A DNA stretch of 64,000 nucleotides from Streptomyces roseifaciens. Its GTDB lineage: Bacteria; Actinomycetota; Actinomycetes; Streptomycetales; Streptomycetaceae. Positions 5,540-24,442 of this stretch are shown in pieces (position 1 is the first letter of the stretch; every line of letters begins with the position of its first letter). The translations under genes were made by a program, and so were the position numbers. The DNA lies in the NCBI RefSeq assembly GCF_001445655.1, contig NZ_LNBE01000004.1:186001-250000 (forward strand). The letters are read 5' to 3'. Under the pieces are notes generated by a model that worked only from the letters and a program-made list of their open reading frames with translations, was not told the origin of the DNA and ran no database searches.

Positions 5540-5865
5540 GGAGCGCCCCTCACAGTCTTCGGTGATTTTTCCAACAGAACTCATCACAGATCACCGCGCT
5601 GTCCCCGCATTTCAAAAGGACAACGACAGAAACGATCTGCTTGCCCTCCATCATCGCTCACCCGGCCGACGCGTTCCTCACACCGGTCACAGGCAACCCC
5701 GGCGTCGAACGAGGCGTCTCCTCCCCCGCACACCTGTCGGCACGGCAGAACAGCGGGCGAACTCGGCGTTTCCTTCAAGTCGCGGGGCGGTGTGCGACTC
5801 ATGCGACGTACACCGTACGGTTGCATGCGCGCTTGTTGGCCGTCTGACATATGGAGAGCGCCCGG

Positions 5866-6855
5866 ATGTACCGCACCGCACCACTTCTGAAGCGGCCGCG
5901 CTGGTGGACCGAACTGCCGCTGATCGCCGTGGTGTACGCGCTGTACTCCGCCGGCCGGCTGCTGGTCCGCGGCGGCGTGCAGCCCGCCGTCGACCACGGA
6001 CTGGCGATTCTCGATCTTGAGAAGACGTTTCGAATAAACTTCGAACACCCGCTGAACCGGCTGTTCACCGACCACCCGGCCATCGGCATACCCGCCGACT
6101 TCGCCTACGCCTCCCTGCACTATCTGCTCACCCCGGCGATCCTGGTCTGGCTCTTCAAGCGGCGCCCGGTCGAATACCGCCTCCAGCGCAGCTGGCTGAT
6201 GATCTCCACCCTCATCGGCCTCATAGGTTTCACCCTGCTGCCCACCTGCCCGCCCCGGCTGCTCGACCCCGGGTACGGCTTCGTCGACACCATGGCCCAG
6301 TACGCCTCCTACGGCTGGTGGGGCGGCGAGGCCAGCGCCCCCCGCGGCCTCGGCGGCATGACCAACCAGTACGCCGCGATGCCGAGCCTCCACGTCGGCT
6401 GGGCCCTGTGGTGCGGCGTCGTCCTCTGGCGCCAGGGCCGCACCGCCTGGGCGAAGGCCGCGGGCGTCGTCTACCCGCTCGCCATCACCCTCGTCGTGAT
6501 GGGCACCGCCAACCACTACTTCCTCGACGCCGTCGCGGGCGCCGCCGTCATGATCGCCGGCCTGCTGCTGGCCAAGCCCGCGATGCGCCTCGCGGACCTG
6601 GTCAAGAGCCGCCTGACCGGCGCGGGACGCGGCGAAACCGCCGGGACGCCCGCGAATGTCAGTGGCGGGTGCGAGACTTCGGCGGGTACAGCGCTTCCCC
6701 GGGCTGCGGCCTCCGGCACCGCCGCCGGAGACGGCCGTCCGGGAGCGCCGCAGCGACCTCACGAGGCGGACGCCAGTGACCACATCCCCCGACAGCCGGC
6801 CCACGGCACCGCCGGCGACAGCCGCACCAACGGCACTGCGGCAGCGGCTCGCTGA
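5866..6855 (+). CDS. PAP2-superfamily membrane protein
   Basis: Integral membrane protein of the PAP2/Aur1-like lipid phosphatase superfamily, 329 aa. Conserved pieces are TCPPRLL, the MPSLHVGWALW motif with catalytic His, and NHYFLDAVAG with the second His and Asp. It has roughly five to six membrane segments and a disordered, Ala/Gly-rich C-terminal tail of about 75 residues. Start ATG 5866 is favoured because GGAGAG (5853-5858) lies 7 nt upstream. ATG 5851 is an in-frame alternative without a ribosome site. Its last 80 nt overlap the start of the nuclease gene in another frame, so the two may be cotranscribed. Substrate unknown. Confidence 0.85.
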   Translation: MYRTAPLLKRPRWWTELPLIAVVYALYSAGRLLVRGGVQPAVDHGLAILDLEKTFRINFEHPLNRLFTDHPAIGIPADFAYASLHYLLTPAILVWLFKRRPVEYRLQRSWLMISTLIGLIGFTLLPTCPPRLLDPGYGFVDTMAQYASYGWWGGEASAPRGLGGMTNQYAAMPSLHVGWALWCGVVLWRQGRTAWAKAAGVVYPLAITLVVMGTANHYFLDAVAGAAVMIAGLLLAKPAMRLADLVKSRLTGAGRGETAGTPANVSGGCETSAGTALPRAAASGTAAGDGRPGAPQRPHEADASDHIPRQPAHGTAGDSRTNGTAAAAR

Positions 6856-8080
6856 GCTGCGCGGGCCGGGCCGCCCGCCCCGCCCGCTCGACGCCCGGGC
6901 CCTCGCGGCCCTCGCCGCCAACCCCGGCTGCCGGCGCCGCGTCCTGCTCGACGGGGCCGGCGTCGACAAGGGCGCCCTGGCCACGGCCCTCGGCTCGCCG
7001 GCCGCCTTCGGGCAGTCGCAGTTCGCGATCGTGCGCGGCCACTCCTTCGAGGCCCGCGCCAAGGCCGACGGCGGTACGGAGCTCGTCCGCCTGCTCCACG
7101 AGCGCCTGCGCGACGGCACCCCCGCCCCGGAGCCCGGCTCCGTGGACGTCCCCGACCTCACCGCCGGCGGCCCCGAAGGCCGCACCGCCCGTACGGCGCT
7201 CGCCCTGCGCGAGGCCACGGCCGCCGGCCGCTGGGCGCTCCTCGACCACCCCCTGCTCGCCCTCCCGGTCTCCGGCACCCCCGCCTTCCTGGAGCCCGAC
7301 GCCGTGGTCGTCCACCCCGACGGGTCGTGGACGGTCGTCGAGATCAAGTCCTTCCCGGTGATCGACGGCGCGGCCGACCCCGGCAAGGTCGGCGCCGCCG
7401 CCCGGCAGGCCGCCGTCTACGTCCTGGCCCTGGAGGAGCTCGCGGCCCGCACCGCCGGCGGCGACACCGCGCGCGTGCGCCACGAGATCCTGCTCGTCTG
7501 CCCGAAGGACTTCGCCAACGTCCCGGTCGCCGAGCTCGTCGACGTCCGCAAGCCGCGCGCCACCACCCGCCGCCAGCTCGCCCGGCTCGCCCGCGTCGAG
7601 GACATCGCCGCGGCGCTGCCCGCCGGCACCACCTTCGACCTCCGCCCGGCCGAGGACGGCGGGACGGCCACCCGGCCCGCCGAAGAGCTCGCCGCCGCCG
7701 TGGAAGCGGTCGACGCCGCCTACGCACCGGAGTGCCTGGCCGCCTGCGAGCTCGCCTTCCACTGCCGCGCCCGGGCGCGGTCCGAAGGCGCCGTGGCCGC
7801 CCTGGGCCGCGGGCTCCGCGGCGAGCTGGGCGGCCTGACCACGGTGGAGTCCGTGCTCGCCGCGGCGCTCGACGGGACGGCGGGCGGGGCGGCCGCCGGT
7901 GGCCATGCGGTTCCCGGCGCCCCTGCGGATGCCGCCGCCGACCCGGCCGCCGACCCCACCGTCGTCGCGCTGCGCCGCGCCGCCGCCCTCCGCTCCGAGG
8001 CCCTCGCCCTCGCGCCCGTCCCCGTCCCCGTCGCCGCGCCCGCCCCCGCCCTCGCCGGAACGGAGGCCGCATGTCGCTGA
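6776..8080 (+). CDS. Cas4/RecB-type iron-sulfur nuclease (PD-(D/E)XK)
   Basis: Predicted DNA nuclease of 434 aa. Residues from the GTG start: Asp175 in EPDAVVV, Glu189-x-Lys191 in VVEIKSF, and the RecB-family Gln211-x3-Tyr215 (QAAVY). Four cysteines are placed as in Cas4, AddB and Dna2 iron-sulfur nucleases: one N-terminal (Cys52) and three C-terminal (Cys320, Cys324, Cys330; spacing C-x3-C-x5-C). The C-terminal 100 residues are low-complexity Ala/Pro. Start GTG 6776 is chosen because GAGGCGG lies six bases upstream. It overlaps the PAP2 gene before it (80 nt) and the next gene (10 nt). The family call is from motifs; the cellular role (repair, end processing or defence) is unknown. Confidence 0.75.
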   Translation: MTTSPDSRPTAPPATAAPTALRQRLAELRGPGRPPRPLDARALAALAANPGCRRRVLLDGAGVDKGALATALGSPAAFGQSQFAIVRGHSFEARAKADGGTELVRLLHERLRDGTPAPEPGSVDVPDLTAGGPEGRTARTALALREATAAGRWALLDHPLLALPVSGTPAFLEPDAVVVHPDGSWTVVEIKSFPVIDGAADPGKVGAAARQAAVYVLALEELAARTAGGDTARVRHEILLVCPKDFANVPVAELVDVRKPRATTRRQLARLARVEDIAAALPAGTTFDLRPAEDGGTATRPAEELAAAVEAVDAAYAPECLAACELAFHCRARARSEGAVAALGRGLRGELGGLTTVESVLAAALDGTAGGAAAGGHAVPGAPADAAADPAADPTVVALRRAAALRSEALALAPVPVPVAAPAPALAGTEAACR

Positions 8081-9612
8081 TCACCACGCTCGCCCGGATG
8101 GAGGCCGTGCGGGACGGCCGGGCCCGGCCCCTCACCACCGTGCGCCACCGGCATCTGGCGGAGCGGCCGCTGGTGTTCGTCCCGCTGACCACCGCCGGTG
8201 AGGCGGGCGCCCCGCTCGGCGCGCTCGTGGGCACCGACCGGGAGCGCCCCCGCCTCCTGGCCGTGCCGCAGCCGCGCGACCGCGACCTGCGCTCCGCCTT
8301 CCTCGCCGAGCTGGCCGAGGAGATGCTGCCGTACATCGAGGGGTTCGCCGAGGGCGTCACCCCGGAGGAGCGCAAGGAGACCGACCCGGAGACCGGCAAG
8401 AAGGTGACGGTCCAGGTCGAGCTGTGCGCGGGCGCGCCGCAGCTGCTGGTGCCGAGCACCGCGGGCGTCGCCTACGTCCGGCTGCTGGGGCGCTCCATGC
8501 GCTTCCGCCGCACGGCCGAGCAGGATCCCGAGACGCCCCACCCCGCCCCGCCGCGCGTCCCGCTGCTGGGCCGCTGGCTGACGCACTTCGGCGAGCGCGC
8601 CCGCGTCCCCGGCTCGTCGCTGCTCCTGCCGGTGACGCAGCTCCTCGCCCGCCACTGGGCCACCGGCCAGAGCACCCTGGAGGACCAGCACCTGGGCGCC
8701 CTGCTCGCCTGGATCGACCCCCCGGCCGGGCTGACGGGCGCGGAGGCGGCACTGCGCGCCGAGCTCGCGCGGGACGCCGCGGGACAGCTGCTCCACCCGC
8801 CCGCGGGCCCGGCCACCGACCCCGCCTTCGACAACAAGCTCCTCGCCCCGGCGACCGCCCGCTTCGACGCGGGCCTGCCCGGCGCCGAGAAGGAGCTCCG
8901 CGAGCTGCTGGAGTCTCAGCTGCGCCCCACGTGGGATGCGGTCTGGCGCGGCGTCGACCTGCTGCGCGCCCTGCCCGAAGGAGAGCGGGTCGGCGAGCGC
9001 TGGAAGCGCGACCGCTGGTCCTACACCGCGCACCGGGACCGCGTACGGGCCGGCGAGCCCCCGCAGCCCCGGCGGGACGACGCGGTGACGGCCGCCCGCA
9101 AGCTCGCGGCGCGCGAGACCGCCCAGGCGCAGCTGGACGCACAGGAGGCGCTGGACGATCCGCTGGTGATGGCCGGGCGGCGGCTGGCGGGCGAGGCGTT
9201 CGCGGGGGAGGTCACCGACGTGGTGATGGAGTACACGGAGGCGAAGGTGCCGCGGCCCAGGCCGCTGGTCACGCTGCGCACGGACGACAGCCCGTTCCTG
9301 TCCGAGGGGGTGAAGGTGCACCGCGCCCTGCCGGGCGGCAAGTCGCAGCCCGCCGAGTTCGCCGGCCACGTGCCCGGCGAACCGGGCGCGCTGACGGTGC
9401 GTCTGACCGGCGGCATGGGGCGCGGCAAGGTGCCCGAGCCCGGCTCGGTGCCGGAGAAGGGCGACCGCGTCTGCTGGACGCTCTTCGAGCACGCCCCGCG
9501 CGGCGGCCCCGAGCTGCCCGACCCCGACCGCACGCCCTGGACGCACGGCGGCCCGCCCGGCGAGCCGGCGGCCGAGCTGCCCGACCCGGTGACCACGGAG
9601 GACCTGCTGTGA
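8071..9612 (+). CDS. Unknown protein between nuclease and helicase genes
   Basis: A 513-aa protein that I do not recognise. The N-terminal 120 residues look globular. The middle is helix-rich with charged segments around residues 280-370. Residues about 372-475 are predicted beta-rich (AFAGEVTDVV, PLVTLRTDD, GDRVCWTLFE), which could be an OB-like or beta-barrel unit. The start ATG overlaps the end of the nuclease gene by 10 nt with GGAGG four bases upstream, and the stop overlaps the helicase GTG by four bases. The tight coupling says it works with both neighbours. In Dna2 a beta-barrel separates nuclease and helicase, so a linker or DNA-clamp role is a reasonable guess only. Confidence 0.8.
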   Translation: MSLITTLARMEAVRDGRARPLTTVRHRHLAERPLVFVPLTTAGEAGAPLGALVGTDRERPRLLAVPQPRDRDLRSAFLAELAEEMLPYIEGFAEGVTPEERKETDPETGKKVTVQVELCAGAPQLLVPSTAGVAYVRLLGRSMRFRRTAEQDPETPHPAPPRVPLLGRWLTHFGERARVPGSSLLLPVTQLLARHWATGQSTLEDQHLGALLAWIDPPAGLTGAEAALRAELARDAAGQLLHPPAGPATDPAFDNKLLAPATARFDAGLPGAEKELRELLESQLRPTWDAVWRGVDLLRALPEGERVGERWKRDRWSYTAHRDRVRAGEPPQPRRDDAVTAARKLAARETAQAQLDAQEALDDPLVMAGRRLAGEAFAGEVTDVVMEYTEAKVPRPRPLVTLRTDDSPFLSEGVKVHRALPGGKSQPAEFAGHVPGEPGALTVRLTGGMGRGKVPEPGSVPEKGDRVCWTLFEHAPRGGPELPDPDRTPWTHGGPPGEPAAELPDPVTTEDLL

Positions 9613-10994
9613 GGACGTTCACGGTGCCCACGGAGGGCGCGCTGCCGCCGCAGCGCGGCCGCGCCGCGGATCCGGGCGCGGCGGCCGAGGAGGTCACGCG
9701 CCGGATCCTGCACGACACGCTGCACAGCCCCGAGCGCGGGGTCGTCGTCGACTCCCCGCCGGGCGCGGGCAAGTCGACGCTCGTCGTCCGCGCCGCGCGG
9801 GAGCTGGCCGCGGCGGGCCGCCCGCTGATGATCGTCGCCCAGACCAACGCCCAGGTGGACGACCTGGTGCTGCGGCTGGCCGCCAAGGACCCCGAGCTGC
9901 CGGTCGGACGGCTGCACAGCGACGCGAGCCCCTACGACCGGGCGCTCGACGCCCTGCCCTCGGTGGTCACGTCCGCGAAGGCCGCCGAGCTGGCGGGGCT
10001 TCCGGTCGTGGTGTCCACGGCCGCGAAGTGGGCGCACACCAAGGTCGCCGAGCCGTGGAGCCACGCGATCGTGGACGAGGCCTACCAGATGCGGTCGGAC
10101 GCCCTGCTGGCCGTGGCCGGGCTCTTCGAACGGGCGCTGTTCGTGGGCGACCCGGGCCAGCTGGACCCCTTCAGCGTGGTGGGGGCCGACGGCGTCGCCC
10201 AGTGGGCCGGGCTCTCGTACGACCCGTCGGCGAGCGCGGTGAGCACGCTGCTCGCCCACAACCCCGGCCTGCCGCAGCACCGGCTGCCCGTCTCCTGGCG
10301 GCTGCCCGCCTCCGCCGCGCCCCTGGTGTCGGCCGCCTTCTATCCGTACACGCCCTTCCGCAGCGGCACGGACCACGGCGACCGGCGGCTGACCTTCGGC
10401 GTGGCCTCGGACGGCTCCGGCCCGGACCGGGTGCTGGACGAGGCGGCCGTCTCGGGCTGGGGCCTGCTGGAGCTGCCGGCCCGTCACACGCCGCGCACCG
10501 ACCCGGAGGCGGTGGGCGCGGTCGCGCACGTGGTCCGGCGGCTGCTGGACCGCGGCGGGGTGACCGTCAGCGAGGCGGCGCCCGGTCCGGTGCCGCTGAC
10601 GGCCGCCCGGATAGCGGTCGGCACCGCCCACCGCGACCAGGCCGCGGCGGTCCGGACGGCGCTCGCCGGCCTGGGCGTGCAGGGCGTCACGGTGGACACG
10701 GCGAACCGGCTGCAGGGCCGCGAGTTCGACGTGACGGTCATGCTGCACCCGCTGTCGGGCCGCCCCGACGCGACGGCCTTCCACCTGGAGACGGGCCGCC
10801 TGTGCGTCCTCGCCTCCCGCCACCGGCACGCGTGCATCGTGGTGTGCCGCGCCGGCGTGGACCGGCTGCTGGACGAGCACCCGTCGACGGAGCCGGTGCA
10901 GCTGGGGGTCACGGTGAAGTTCCCCGACGGATGGGAGGCCATGATGGCGACGTGGGACCACTGGTCGGAGCACCGGGTGGCGTGGAAGCCGTGA
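9609..10994 (+). CDS. UPF1/Dna2-like superfamily 1B helicase
   Basis: ATP-dependent nucleic-acid helicase, 461 aa. Walker A SPPGAGKST is at about residues 49-57, Walker B IVDEAYQM at 154-161, motif III GDPGQLDPF at 180-188 and motif IV VSWRLP at 228-233. Motif V/VI regions follow around VDTANRLQGREFD (362-374) and LASRHRHA. The combination of a Q-rich motif Ia (AQTNAQVDDL) and GDPGQL fits UPF1-type SF1B enzymes, to which Dna2 belongs. The GTG start overlaps the previous TGA (GTGA) with GGAGG seven bases upstream. Third gene of the coupled nuclease operon; converges on the next gene with a 27-nt gap. Confidence 0.85.
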   Translation: MRTFTVPTEGALPPQRGRAADPGAAAEEVTRRILHDTLHSPERGVVVDSPPGAGKSTLVVRAARELAAAGRPLMIVAQTNAQVDDLVLRLAAKDPELPVGRLHSDASPYDRALDALPSVVTSAKAAELAGLPVVVSTAAKWAHTKVAEPWSHAIVDEAYQMRSDALLAVAGLFERALFVGDPGQLDPFSVVGADGVAQWAGLSYDPSASAVSTLLAHNPGLPQHRLPVSWRLPASAAPLVSAAFYPYTPFRSGTDHGDRRLTFGVASDGSGPDRVLDEAAVSGWGLLELPARHTPRTDPEAVGAVAHVVRRLLDRGGVTVSEAAPGPVPLTAARIAVGTAHRDQAAAVRTALAGLGVQGVTVDTANRLQGREFDVTVMLHPLSGRPDATAFHLETGRLCVLASRHRHACIVVCRAGVDRLLDEHPSTEPVQLGVTVKFPDGWEAMMATWDHWSEHRVAWKP

Positions 10995-12659: not shown

Positions 12660-14159
12660 ATGGTGTCGTCCCACGCGTCCCCGTCTCCCTGCCCAGGGCC
12701 CGCCGAACCGGTGGGTCCCGGCGGTCCGGACGGCAAGGGCAGCCGCCCGAACGCGGCCTTCAGACAGCTGCGGGGCGCGCTCTCGCCGGCCGAGTTCGCG
12801 GCGGCCGTGCGGCGCGCCGCCCGCGAGATCGGCGAGCAGGTCTCGTGCGACGCGCGCTACATCGGCCGGGTCGAGTCGGGGGAGATCCGCTGCCCCAACT
12901 ACGCCTACGAGCGGGTGTTCCGGCACATGTTCCCCGGCCGCGAGCCGGAGGACATGGGCTTCGTCCCGCGCGACGTGGTCCGCGGGCGGGGCGCGCGCGG
13001 CAGGGACGGCAGCGGCGGCGACGGCCACCCCACCGGGAATGCCCCGGGGAGCCCCGCCGGGCACCGCACCGGAAACCGCACCGCCCATCGCATCGAGCAG
13101 CCCAAGGAGAGCGACGTGTTGCGCCGCGCGTTCATGACCGGCGGCACGGCGGCCGCGGTGGCCGCGGCCTCCCTGGGCGCCGCCGTGCCGGTCGTCCAGC
13201 AGCCGGATGCGGCGGACGGCCTGCTCGACGGCGGACGCCTCGGCCCGCGCCGCGCCGGCGAGGCCGAGGCGTCCGCCGTCGAGCAGGCCGTCCGCCGCAT
13301 CCGGCTGCTGGACGACCGGCACGGCGGCGACGGCCTCTACCGGCGGTCCACCCGCCCGCTGCGGATCGCCTACGAGCTGCTCGACGCCGACACCCGCCGC
13401 CGGTCCGTCGCCGAGCGGCTGCAGTCGGGCGCGGGCGAACTCGCGCTCTCCGTCGGCTGGCTGGCCCACGACTCCGGCCGCTTCGCGGACGCCCGCTCCC
13501 ACTACGCCGAGGCGCTCGCCACGGCCCGGGTGGCCGGGGACGCGGCGCTGGAGGCCCACGCCTTCTGCAACGCCGCCTTCCTCGCGCGGGACGCCGGCCG
13601 CCCGCGGGAGGCCGTGCGCGCGGCGCAGGCCGCGCAGGGCGCCGCGAAGGGGCTGGCCTCCCCGCGGCTGATGTCCCTGCTGGCCCTGCGGGAGGCCGGC
13701 GGCTGGGCCGGGCTCGGCGACCGGGCCGCCTGCGAGGCCGCCCTGCTGCGGGCGCGCACGCTCTTCGGCCGCGGGCCGGGCGACGCCGATCCCGAGTGGA
13801 TGAGCTTCTTCGGGGAGGCCGAGCTGGAGGGGCTGGAGGCCCAGTGCCGGTCGGCGCTCGGCGACTGGGCGCGGGCGGCGGAGCACGCGCGGCGCGCCGT
13901 CGCCCTCCAGGACCCCCACTTCGCCCGCAACACCGCCCTCTTCACCGCGCAGCTCGCCGGGGACCTCGCCCGGGGCGGGGCGCCGGACGCGGCGGCGGCC
14001 GCGGGGGAGCGCGCGCTGGACCTGCTGACCGAGGTCCGCTCGACCCGGATCCGGACGATGCTCGCCGCCACGGCCCGGCTGCTCGGCCGCCACGGGGGCG
14101 AGCCGTCGGTGGCGGGGTTCCTGGAGCGGCACGCGGCGGAGCGGAGGACCGCCGGCTGA
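12660..14159 (+). CDS. NsdA-like HTH/TPR regulatory protein
   Basis: A 499-aa protein with an N-terminal helix-turn-helix-like region (about residues 30-100, with the motif RYIGRVESGEIRCPNYAYE), a central Ala-rich hydrophobic stretch and a C-terminal TPR-like repeat region from about 225 (GELALSVGWLAHDSGR, AHAFCNAAFLARDAGR, AAEHARRAVALQ). This build matches the NsdA family of Streptomyces developmental and antibiotic regulators; orthology is not claimed. ATG 12660 has AGAAGG seven bases upstream. Residues 173-223 are encoded by a perfect inverted repeat (13178-13329), suggesting a local inverted duplication of 84 nt that stayed in frame. Confidence 0.8.
   Translation: MVSSHASPSPCPGPAEPVGPGGPDGKGSRPNAAFRQLRGALSPAEFAAAVRRAAREIGEQVSCDARYIGRVESGEIRCPNYAYERVFRHMFPGREPEDMGFVPRDVVRGRGARGRDGSGGDGHPTGNAPGSPAGHRTGNRTAHRIEQPKESDVLRRAFMTGGTAAAVAAASLGAAVPVVQQPDAADGLLDGGRLGPRRAGEAEASAVEQAVRRIRLLDDRHGGDGLYRRSTRPLRIAYELLDADTRRRSVAERLQSGAGELALSVGWLAHDSGRFADARSHYAEALATARVAGDAALEAHAFCNAAFLARDAGRPREAVRAAQAAQGAAKGLASPRLMSLLALREAGGWAGLGDRAACEAALLRARTLFGRGPGDADPEWMSFFGEAELEGLEAQCRSALGDWARAAEHARRAVALQDPHFARNTALFTAQLAGDLARGGAPDAAAAAGERALDLLTEVRSTRIRTMLAATARLLGRHGGEPSVAGFLERHAAERRTAG
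13178..13329. repeat. Perfect 68-bp inverted repeat with 16-nt loop
   Basis: The left arm 13178-13245 is the exact reverse complement of the right arm 13262-13329, checked base by base. The loop is 13246-13261. It lies wholly inside the NsdA-like gene. The left arm plus loop is 84 nt, an exact multiple of three. The right arm encodes the segment that fits the rest of the protein (EQAVRRIRLLDDRHG), so the left arm looks like the added copy. Such a long hairpin should be unstable and would fold strongly in mRNA. Confidence 0.95.
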
Positions 14160-21660: not shown

Positions 21661-23316
21661 TTGAGACGCATGAGCCCCCGGTGCAGGAACGCGAGGCGGC
21701 TGGCGACGACCGGCCTCGCCCTGCTGCTCCTCTCCGCCGCCGGCACGGCCGTCCCGGCCCGGGCCGCCGAGCCCGCCCCCGCCCCGCTCGACCGCAGCAT
21801 CGTGCCCGCCCCCGCCTCCGTGCGGCCCGGCGGCGAGCCGTACGAGATCACCGCCCGCACCGTCGTGCGGGTGCCGTCCGGCAACCCGGAGGCCGCGCGG
21901 ATCGGCGGCTACCTGGCGGGGCTCCTGCGCCCCTCGACGGGCTACCGGTTGCCGGTCCTGCCCGGCGGGACGGACGGGCCCGGCATCCGGCTGGTGCTCG
22001 ACGAGAACGCCGGGGAAAACGCCGGGGAAGGGGAAGGCGGCGGGGGAGGGGACAGGGGCGGCGAGGGCTACCGGCTGTCCGTCACCTCCCGTGCGGTGAC
22101 GATCACCGCACGGGAGGGCGCCGGGCTCTTCCACGGCGTCCAGACCCTGCGCCAGCTGCTCCCCGCCCGCGCCGAGCGCACCGAGCGGCAGCCCGGGCCC
22201 TGGACCGTGGCGGGCGGCGTCGTCACCGACGCGCCGCGCTACGGCCACCGCGGCGCGATGCTCGACGTCGCCCGGCACTTCTTCACCGTGGACCAGGTGA
22301 AGCGGTACATCGACCAGCTCGCCCTCTACAAGATCAACCGGCTGCACCTGCACCTCTCCGACGACCAGGGCTGGCGCATCGCCGTCCGCTCCTGGCCGCG
22401 GCTGGCCGAGCACGGCGGCAGCACGCAGGTGGGTGGCGGCCCCGGCGGCTTCTACAGCCGCGACGACTACCGCGAGATCGTCCGCCACGCCGCGAGCCGC
22501 TACCTCACCGTGGTGCCCGAGATCGACATGCCGGGCCACACCAACGCGGCGCTCGCCTCGTACGCCCGGCTCAACTGCGACGGCGTCGCCCGTCCCCTCT
22601 ATACGGGCACCGAAGTCGGCTTCAGCTCGCTGTGCGTGGGGAAGCAGGACACGTACGACTTCGTGGAGGACGTCATCGGGGAGCTGGCGGCGCTCACGCC
22701 CGGCCCCTACCTGCACATCGGCGGCGACGAGGCGCACTCCACCAGCCACGCCGACTACGCGGCCTTCATGGAGCGGGTGCAGCCCGTCGTCGCCCGGCAC
22801 GGCAAGACGGTCATCGGCTGGCACCAGCTGGCCGGGGCGCGTCCGGCGCCGGGCGCGCTCCTGCAGTACTGGGGATACGGCCGGACCGGGGCCGCCGAAC
22901 GGGCCCAGGTCGCCTCCGCGGTGCGGGCGGGCGCGGGCCTGATCCTCTCGCCCGCGGACCGGGCCTACCTGGACATGAAGTACACCAAGGACACGCCGCT
23001 GGGCCTGCAGTGGGCGGGCCTGGTCGAGGTGCGGCAGTCCTACGACTGGGACCCCGCCGGCTACCTGGAGGGCGTCCCCGCCTCGGCCGTCGCCGGCGTC
23101 GAGGCGCCGCTGTGGACGGAGACGATCACCACGAGCGCGCAGCTGGAGTACATGGCGTTCCCACGGCTGCCGGGCATCGCCGAACTCGGCTGGTCCCCGG
23201 CGGCGACGCACGACTGGCAGTCCTACCGGACGCGGCTCGCCGCCCAGGGCCCGCGCTGGGACGCCCTCGGCATCGCGTACTACCGCTCGCCGCAGGTGGC
23301 GTGGCCTGCGGCGTAG
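21661..23316 (+). CDS. Secreted beta-N-acetylhexosaminidase (GH20)
   Basis: An exported family 20 glycosidase of 551 aa that removes terminal GlcNAc/GalNAc, typically from chitobiose. The signal peptide has RR residues, a Leu-rich core and a PARA|AEP cleavage site. The GH20b domain (about 40-190) contains a Gly/Glu-rich insertion (ENAGENAGEGEGGGGGDRGG). The catalytic barrel has the Asp356-Glu357 pair in HIGGDEAHS and LHLHLSDDQGWRI. TTG 21661 is chosen because AAGGGA lies seven bases upstream; ATG 21670 is too far from it. It matches the known single-copy secreted hexosaminidase of Streptomyces. Likely feeds GlcNAc uptake. Confidence 0.93.
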   Translation: MRRMSPRCRNARRLATTGLALLLLSAAGTAVPARAAEPAPAPLDRSIVPAPASVRPGGEPYEITARTVVRVPSGNPEAARIGGYLAGLLRPSTGYRLPVLPGGTDGPGIRLVLDENAGENAGEGEGGGGGDRGGEGYRLSVTSRAVTITAREGAGLFHGVQTLRQLLPARAERTERQPGPWTVAGGVVTDAPRYGHRGAMLDVARHFFTVDQVKRYIDQLALYKINRLHLHLSDDQGWRIAVRSWPRLAEHGGSTQVGGGPGGFYSRDDYREIVRHAASRYLTVVPEIDMPGHTNAALASYARLNCDGVARPLYTGTEVGFSSLCVGKQDTYDFVEDVIGELAALTPGPYLHIGGDEAHSTSHADYAAFMERVQPVVARHGKTVIGWHQLAGARPAPGALLQYWGYGRTGAAERAQVASAVRAGAGLILSPADRAYLDMKYTKDTPLGLQWAGLVEVRQSYDWDPAGYLEGVPASAVAGVEAPLWTETITTSAQLEYMAFPRLPGIAELGWSPAATHDWQSYRTRLAAQGPRWDALGIAYYRSPQVAWPAA

Positions 23317-23355
23317 CCCGGGCGTCAAGGCTGCGACAGGACCGCCGGAACGATC

Positions 23356-23385
23356 TTGACCCTGCCGTGACCATCCTCGAATACT
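23356..23385 (+). promoter_or_regulatory. Putative sigma-HrdB promoter for the small membrane protein
   Basis: -35 TTGACC (23356-23361), 18-nt spacer, -10 AATACT (23380-23385). It lies about 70 nt upstream of the start at 23457 and in an AT-richer gap after the hexosaminidase gene. Confidence 0.45.
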
Positions 23386-23456
23386 CCACACATGATCTTC
23401 CGGTGACCGTGTGGACGCCGACAGCCATGGAGCGATCGCAAGTGAAAAGGGCACAG

Positions 23457-23633
23457 ATGAGCGCCTCACGCAGCCAGTCCGGTCTCGTGATCGGACTGGC
23501 GGCCTTCAACGCAGCACTGACGACCCTGGTGGCCGTGGTGACGTGGCGCGACGGCGTGGCGCCGTGGGCGGCCGCCGCCGTGGTCTCGCTCGTCCTGCTC
23601 CTCATCGTCGTGCGCGGTCAGCGGAGATCGTGA
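23457..23633 (+). CDS. 58-residue two-helix membrane protein
   Basis: A short open frame with two clear membrane segments (LVIGLAAFNAALTTLVAVVT and WAAAAVVSLVLLLIVV) and a basic end. ATG 23457 has AAAAGGG five bases upstream. The gene is short but the ribosome site, hydrophobic pattern and putative promoter support it. It precedes the secreted Cys-rich protein gene by 53 nt on the same strand; a joint function (for example immunity or export) is only a guess. Confidence 0.65.
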   Translation: MSASRSQSGLVIGLAAFNAALTTLVAVVTWRDGVAPWAAAAVVSLVLLLIVVRGQRRS

Positions 23634-23686
23634 CACCAGCCGGGGGCTCTCCTGCTCTCCGGCCTGCCCGAATCAAGGAACAACAC

Positions 23687-24442
23687 GTGAAAATCTCGTC
23701 CCGTCTCGTCTCCGCGGCCCTGATCGGCATGACGCTGGTCGGCACCACCGCGGCTCAGGTCCAGGCGGTCTCCCCGGCGGCCGCCACCTCCGCGACCGCT
23801 TCCTCCACGGTGCTTTCGCCCGAACTCGCCTCCTTCCAGCAGAAGGTGGAGAACTTCGCCAAGCAGACCAAGCTGCTGGAGGGCGAGCAGGCGCAGAAGT
23901 GGCTCGACCGCTTCGAGGCCGACGTCAAGAAGGGCACGGTCCGTACGCACCTGCCTGCGGGCTCCTCGCTCGCGGCGGAGCAGGCGTCGGTCTACCGCTT
24001 CGACAGCGGCAACACCCAGGTCTCCCTGCCGATCTCGGGCCAGGTCCGCGGCGCCAGCGTGAACGCGGTCTACGACTCGGCGGGCAAGCTCGTCGAGAGC
24101 CTGGAGATGCAGCTGACCCACGACGAGACCAAGGGGCTCGCCCAGGTCTGGCGCGACGGGGTGCTGAGCAACTCCAGGACCATCACGGCGGCCGAGCTGC
24201 CGAAGGACCTGCCGGCCGAGGCGAAGGCCGGCGGTCCGGTCATGCGCGGCTTCAGCTTCAAGAAGCTCAACAGCTGCCTCGCGAACGCGGGCGTCTCCAG
24301 CTGGACGCTGGCCCTCCTCGGCACCGCCTGCGGCGCGGCGTGCGTGGGCACGGCGGGGGCCGCCTGCGTGCCGTGCCTGACCGCGGCCGGCGGCCTGGGT
24401 GCGGGCACGGTGTGGTTCTGCGTCGGCAAGGCCACCTCGTAA
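23687..24442 (+). CDS. Secreted protein with hydrophobic six-cysteine C-terminus
   Basis: A 251-aa exported protein. A signal peptide (VKISSRLVSAALIGMTLVG, probable cleavage near residue 28) is followed by a soluble domain of about 160 residues with strands such as SVYRFDSGNTQVSLPISG. The C-terminal 60 residues are hydrophobic, Gly/Ala-rich and hold six cysteines (197, 215, 219, 227, 230, 245). That layout, a leader-like globular part and a compact Cys-rich hydrophobic end, recalls precursors of bacteriocins such as halocin C8, but I do not recognise the family. GTG start with AAGGAA six bases upstream; followed by a terminator. Confidence 0.8.
   Translation: MKISSRLVSAALIGMTLVGTTAAQVQAVSPAAATSATASSTVLSPELASFQQKVENFAKQTKLLEGEQAQKWLDRFEADVKKGTVRTHLPAGSSLAAEQASVYRFDSGNTQVSLPISGQVRGASVNAVYDSAGKLVESLEMQLTHDETKGLAQVWRDGVLSNSRTITAAELPKDLPAEAKAGGPVMRGFSFKKLNSCLANAGVSSWTLALLGTACGAACVGTAGAACVPCLTAAGGLGAGTVWFCVGKATS

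Follow-up and report, generated by a model that had tools for sequence, protein, structure and literature searches.

The nearest characterised enzyme to the system described here is Bad, the bacterial DNA2-like helicase-nuclease of Geobacillus stearothermophilus, which is reported to be one polypeptide of 5' to 3' polarity, with a RecB-family nuclease bearing four iron-sulphur (Fe-S) cysteines, then a conserved central region whose fold is not known and finally a superfamily 1B (SF1B) helicase (PMC7430649). The authors describe Bad as rare and sporadic, and note that Mycobacteria and Rhodococcus have a second class. We analysed a 64,000-nucleotide (nt) window of Streptomyces roseifaciens DNA (contig NZ_LNBE01000004.1, positions 186,001 to 250,000), in which three overlapping genes, here called NUC, MID and HEL (Table 1), follow the order of nuclease, central region and SF1B helicase described for Bad. 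An earlier note on this DNA had suggested that they could be a split bacterial equivalent of DNA2 or a defence complex. We consider it probable that the trio is one DNA2-type helicase-nuclease machine, split over three polypeptides and serving DNA ends, flaps or forks, a reading based on gene order, conservation, motifs, a predicted barrel and neighbouring genes.

Unlike Bad, a single chain reported as rare (PMC7430649), the trio comprises three genes and is core in Streptomyces. The features of DNA2 and Bad found here are Fe-S-type motifs, a motor of SF1B type by sequence and a predicted intervening barrel, but not the single polypeptide. Eukaryotic DNA2 shares the order of nuclease, barrel and SF1B motor but is one chain, and the similarity of NUC to its nuclease is undetectable beyond the motifs. 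Upf1-like helicases (Upf1, IGHMBP2, SETX/Sen1) have a barrel before the RecA motor and the Pfam families AAA_11/AAA_12, but keep barrel and motor in one chain, whereas two genes are used here. AdnAB, AddAB and RecBCD likewise combine a RecB-type nuclease with an SF1 motor, but of the UvrD type, in contrast to AAA_11/AAA_12 in HEL. The domain order of the trio also occurs in fused actinobacterial proteins of the TIGR03491 type (TM0106-type RecB-like nuclease, RNase_H_2, helicase). HEL is homologous to their helicase part (hhalign 99.6%); the best alignments of NUC and MID on these proteins were non-significant and co-linear with the matching regions. A TIGR03491 search of the S. roseifaciens genome gave no match, NUC and MID failing to score, and proteins over the cut-off were found in 39 of the 148 class genomes and in none of the 11 same-genus genomes of the sample. 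These proteins are probably the second class mentioned in PMC7430649. The trio is no member of a named family and is DNA2-like in anatomy. The trio has no name; as an amendment to the earlier note, bacterial DNA2-like enzymes are already known as single chains, namely Bad (PMC7430649).

The association of the three genes was assessed in 80 named loci retained out of at least 593. NUC lies ahead of MID in 79 of them, the exception (L113) beginning at a contig edge; in these 79 loci, which are non-redundant by record, the two genes overlap by 4 nt in 37 and by 1 nt in one, and are 7-310 nt apart in the others. HEL directly follows MID in 68 loci, comes after 0.9-2.4 kb in four and is absent from the locus in eight, all titled Micromonospora or Verrucosispora. 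One genome in the Micromonospora/Verrucosispora clade of the MID tree (G261) has HEL (C1:3131940-3133235) about 36 kb from NUC-MID. A HEL-profile search of 18 genomes recovered full-length HEL in all nine with NUC or MID and in none of the nine others. In G292, of the same genus as G107, we found merely decayed HEL pieces with stops (L153; C17, about 23037-23814), and the trio is lost there. The HEL starts across loci were chosen by rule and are uncertain. The genes are separate in the window and in the surveyed loci, and relatives outside the class keep their order; what looked like a MID-HEL fusion in G010 proved to be a frame artefact. The coordinates, lengths and overlaps given in the earlier note were correct, and the neighbourhood survey that it called for found the three genes together across families. 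Such repeated occurrence as one unit means that the association is not chance.

By its sequence, NUC carries the motifs of the RecB family (N-P-G-C52, F-E92, E173-P-D175, E189-I-K191, Q211xxxY215) with a four-cysteine Fe-S arrangement completed by C320x3C324x5C330, a combination described for AddB, DNA2, Cas4 and Bad (PMC7430649). The NUC alignment of 121 rows covers the genus, Nocardia, Actinomadura, Streptosporangiaceae, Micromonosporaceae and others and includes near-duplicates (e.g. L050/L065); loci without a NUC match (L113, L151, L152, L153) lie outside it. The four cysteines, which stand at the positions given in the earlier note, Q211 and Y215 are unchanged in every row, D175 is retained in 120 rows, and E92, E189 and K191 in 118 each. 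The Pfam PDDEXK_1 match of NUC is sub-threshold (14.8 of 22 bits, E 0.028) and a solved-structure search gave no match, so the PD-(D/E)XK nuclease assignment, also made in the earlier note, rests on the conserved motif set. Cas4 (PF01930) was absent from the Pfam matches of NUC and from the families matched by 19 aligned members, and no NCBIfam family reached E <= 0.1 with either NUC or MID. The deep relatives L145 and L146, outside the class, retain NPxC, GQSxFAxxRGxxFE, D, GEIK, QxxxY and Cx3Cx5C at about 27% identity to the window copy. The cysteines of Cas4, AddB and DNA2 are spaced C-x2-C-x5-C, as in the fused TIGR03491-type protein L188, and the C-x3-C-x5-C of NUC is one residue off this spacing. 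Judging from these motifs, NUC would be expected to hold an Fe-S cluster and to act as a nuclease. Second-copy rows of the genus (L028, L029, L053) have NUC without E92, E189 and K191. A strong PDDEXK_1 protein adjoins the degenerate NUC in L028 (2133-3773) and L053 (13238-14878), and a homologue adjoins NUC in L029, as if a second RecB-like protein had replaced the nuclease in these loci.

HEL scored above the Pfam cut-offs for AAA_11, AAA_30 and AAA_12, whereas no match to a UvrD family reached E <= 0.1. DNA2 and SMUBP-2/IGHMBP2 were the only solved structures related to it at E <= 0.01, and in profile mode Upf1 was a more distant relative. Together with the conserved motifs Walker A, DEAYQ, GDPGQLDP, QGRE and SRHR, these matches qualify HEL as a predicted SF1B Upf1/DNA2-type motor, in agreement with the UPF1-like helicase of the earlier note. 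The P-loop begins at residue 49; therefore, the preceding barrel of Upf1-like enzymes is missing from HEL. One HEL protein, P0244, is 95% identical to the window copy and carries the source label Streptosporangium nondiastaticum, possibly a naming error.

MID had no match in Pfam, NCBIfam or PADLOC searches. Its structure model (predicted local distance difference test, pLDDT, 90.1; predicted template modelling score, pTM, 0.87) suggests an N-terminal alpha/beta part, a helical middle and a C-terminal beta-barrel. Residues 31-358 may adopt an RNase H-like exonuclease fold, in which the motif I acidic residues were not seen, and the RNase_H_2 family had no match in MID. We propose that the barrel of residues 372-473 is the 1B domain of the helicase, and the model in this way backs the earlier suggestion that the unknown protein supplies the barrel of DNA2. 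The DNA2 comparison leaves the large N-terminal part of MID (about residues 1-370) without explanation, and we know of no counterpart in DNA2. The idea of a split DNA2 equivalent is supported, with that part of MID left aside: of the three outcomes named in the earlier note as speaking against it, none occurred, since the PD-(D/E)XK motifs are conserved, the cysteines do not vary and the three genes are found together.

Table 1. Positions in the window of the trio, its principal features and the adjoining upstream gene.
Feature	Position	Strand	Remark
NUC, predicted Fe-S ('iron-staple' type) RecB-family PD-(D/E)XK nuclease, 434 amino acids, GTG start	6776..8080	+	
MID, 513 amino acids, ATG start, without family match	8071..9612	+	
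HEL, SF1B Upf1/DNA2-type helicase motor, 461 amino acids, GTG start	9609..10994	+	
NUC/MID overlap, 10 nt	8071..8080	+	
MID/HEL overlap, 4 nt (GTGA)	9609..9612	+	
Cys52 codon, first predicted Fe-S ligand of NUC	6929..6931	+	invariant, 121/121 rows
NUC catalytic core, D175 to Y215 (D, E-x-K, QxxxY)	7298..7420	+	alignment
NUC C320-x3-C324-x5-C330, other predicted Fe-S ligands	7733..7765	+	
Possible RNase H-like fold (as in the family-B polymerase exonuclease) in MID, residues 31-358	8161..9144	+	
Beta-barrel of MID (residues 372-473), proposed as 1B domain of HEL	9184..9489	+	
HEL Walker A, S49-PPGAGKST57	9753..9779	+	invariant, 18/18 rows of alignment
PAP2-family gene	5851..6855	+	Pfam PAP2_3, E 3.9e-63

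NUC was found in 43 of 61 relatives and, among same-genus genomes, in 35 of 36, with partial or split matches in four of the 35 (G002, G008, G009, G031). The exception, G010, has MID and HEL with an N-masked stretch upstream, and the whole set is present in 35 to 36 of the 36 genomes. A sample of the phylum (396 genomes, 236 genera) had MID in 14 genomes and three genera and NUC in 16 genomes and five genera, the same with a deeper profile. In seven single-contig genomes the distance of the main copy from the nearer end amounts to 15-39% of the length. In a quick MID tree (99 rows, several open forks) the rows group mostly by family, and second copies from the genus are placed apart from the clade of its main copies. 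The closest named proteins come mostly from Streptomyces.

The PAP2-family gene overlaps the start of NUC by 80 nt and is a conserved neighbour in the genus; we do not count it as part of the machine proper. The window also encodes an NsdA-family TPR-like regulatory protein (NF053720) at 12660-14159. A fourth gene, X, of about 265 amino acids and without a clear Pfam family, immediately precedes NUC in 66 of the 80 named loci and also in 10 further loci, though main copies of the genus do not have it there; the aligned homologues (e.g. L105:4136-4903) have a coiled-coil-like N-terminus and a conserved LRRDEERSF...RPYYLC domain. SbcD-like genes occur in eight of 102 loci, divergent from X in six (L021, L022 (partial), L023, L024, L026, L052) and in tandem behind HEL in Micromonospora sp. 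CB01531 (L114) and Kibdelosporangium philippinense (L144), where SbcC-like frames come next. On a Streptomyces plasmid (NZ_CP108489.1, L226, 6093-22426), SbcC-SbcD, X-NUC-MID-HEL and a Wadjet-type operon are consecutive, and a second one (NZ_CP027023.1, L227, 208-14021) has the same row with SbcCD annotated as pieces. About 154 nt past HEL, both plasmids carry DUF3375, DUF4194, an SMC-like ATPase and a JetD-domain protein; the first three we take to be the other Jet genes of Wadjet. Decayed DUF3375 pieces lie 0.13 kb behind HEL in G049. That several lineages have SbcCD on one side of the trio or the other suggests DNA ends as the common substrate, and the Wadjet or GmrSD neighbours suggest that some copies were recruited to defence. 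In the S. roseifaciens genome SbcD lies away from the trio, and a separate pair of PDDEXK_1 frames may be AdnAB-like. Single loci showed further neighbours: a gene that matches RNase_H_2 and, weakly, PDDEXK_1 and shares 17 nt with HEL in a deep relative (L146:3059-4753); a UvrD-PDDEXK_1 gene and, by eye, a tyrosine-recombinase-like frame flanking a deep trio (L145:109-2922 and 7378-8558); a GmrSD_N gene between MID and HEL (L108:7622-9919), with a look-alike in L117; and a frame in L109 that presumably resembles RhuM.

We infer that the three proteins form a complex. HEL would supply the RecA1-RecA2 motor and, being SF1B, should move 5' to 3' along single-stranded DNA. The barrel at the C-terminus of MID would dock on HEL and stand in for the 1B domain that HEL lacks, while the remainder of MID would bridge to NUC which, held by its four-cysteine Fe-S cluster, would cut the strand threaded by the motor, as DNA2 and Bad do. 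Likely substrates would be 5'-ended single strands at breaks, flaps and stalled forks, with trimming or resection as the outcome, in some lineages jointly with the SbcCD (Mre11-Rad50-like) pair. The Streptomyces copy would be a core chromosomal maintenance enzyme alongside AdnAB, and accessory copies the same machine joined to defence modules such as Wadjet. For the window copy we favour chromosomal DNA-end or flap processing, because it is core, has no recognised defence neighbours and is surrounded by conserved genes. A more elaborate proposal is an actinobacterial counterpart of the eukaryotic MRN-DNA2 assembly for long-range resection. In it, SbcCD (Mre11-Rad50-like), X and the split DNA2 would act together on DNA ends, as a core end-processing pathway beside AdnAB in Streptomyces with linear chromosomes; on plasmids the assembly would be joined to Wadjet and would destroy the DNA opened by the latter. 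This seems to us rather unlikely.

The JetABCD-like genes in one row with SbcCD, X and NUC-MID-HEL on the two plasmids, the DUF3375 remnants of G049, the GmrSD_N gene in L108, its look-alike in L117 and the patchy distribution outside Streptomyces would also fit a defence complex, the window copy included, that degrades phage or plasmid DNA in a restriction-like or Wadjet-assisting manner; Bad itself has been proposed as part of a restriction system (PMC7430649). However, the trio is core in the genus and its neighbours are conserved, the PAP2-family gene being present in 23 of 25 same-genus main-copy loci. PADLOC-DB 2.0.0 gave only weak matches for HEL, the best being MkoC with E 7.2e-8 across just 78 residues, and none for NUC or MID, and no DUF3375 was found in the S. 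roseifaciens genome. Phage records and viral contigs held no relative at the sensitivity used, and only three of 72,556 records in the plasmid collection had a match, one of which (NZ_LT559118.1 of Nonomuraea gerenzanensis, 11.85 Mb) is evidently a chromosome. On balance, we regard a defence role for the window copy as somewhat unlikely.

It is very unlikely that the genes are co-inherited neighbours without a common complex, their overlaps reflecting compact operon packing. That explanation would account for the eight of 80 loci that lack HEL next to MID and also lack X (L121, L122, L126, L127, L129, L132, L133, L141), but it sits poorly with the joint presence in nine of nine genomes, the HEL retained elsewhere in the one genome searched, the barrel and motor halves of one fold lying in different genes, and the same gene order outside the class. 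The least probable of the explanations is an RNA-processing helicase, in which HEL would act on RNA or R-loops like Upf1, IGHMBP2 or SETX with NUC and MID as cofactors; the MID barrel and HEL motor do match RNA helicases as well as DNA2, yet DNA is the substrate of RecB-family Fe-S nucleases and of neighbours such as SbcCD, Wadjet and the RecB-like proteins.

NUC and MID are mostly annotated as 'hypothetical protein' in the source records, and the trio, so far without a name, probably processes broken or foreign DNA ends. If the DNA2-type machine proposed here is real, Streptomyces would have two helicase-nucleases for DNA ends, the trio and AdnAB; adnAB is reported as essential in Streptomyces, which is unusual (PMC5124664). 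The finding would then bear on recombination of the linear chromosome and on arm loss. It would also show that a split of the DNA2 fold into separate genes is possible precisely where barrel and motor join, offer a model of three subunits whose nuclease and motor could be mutated independently, and connect the Mre11-Rad50-like, DNA2-like and Wadjet modules of bacteria with one another.

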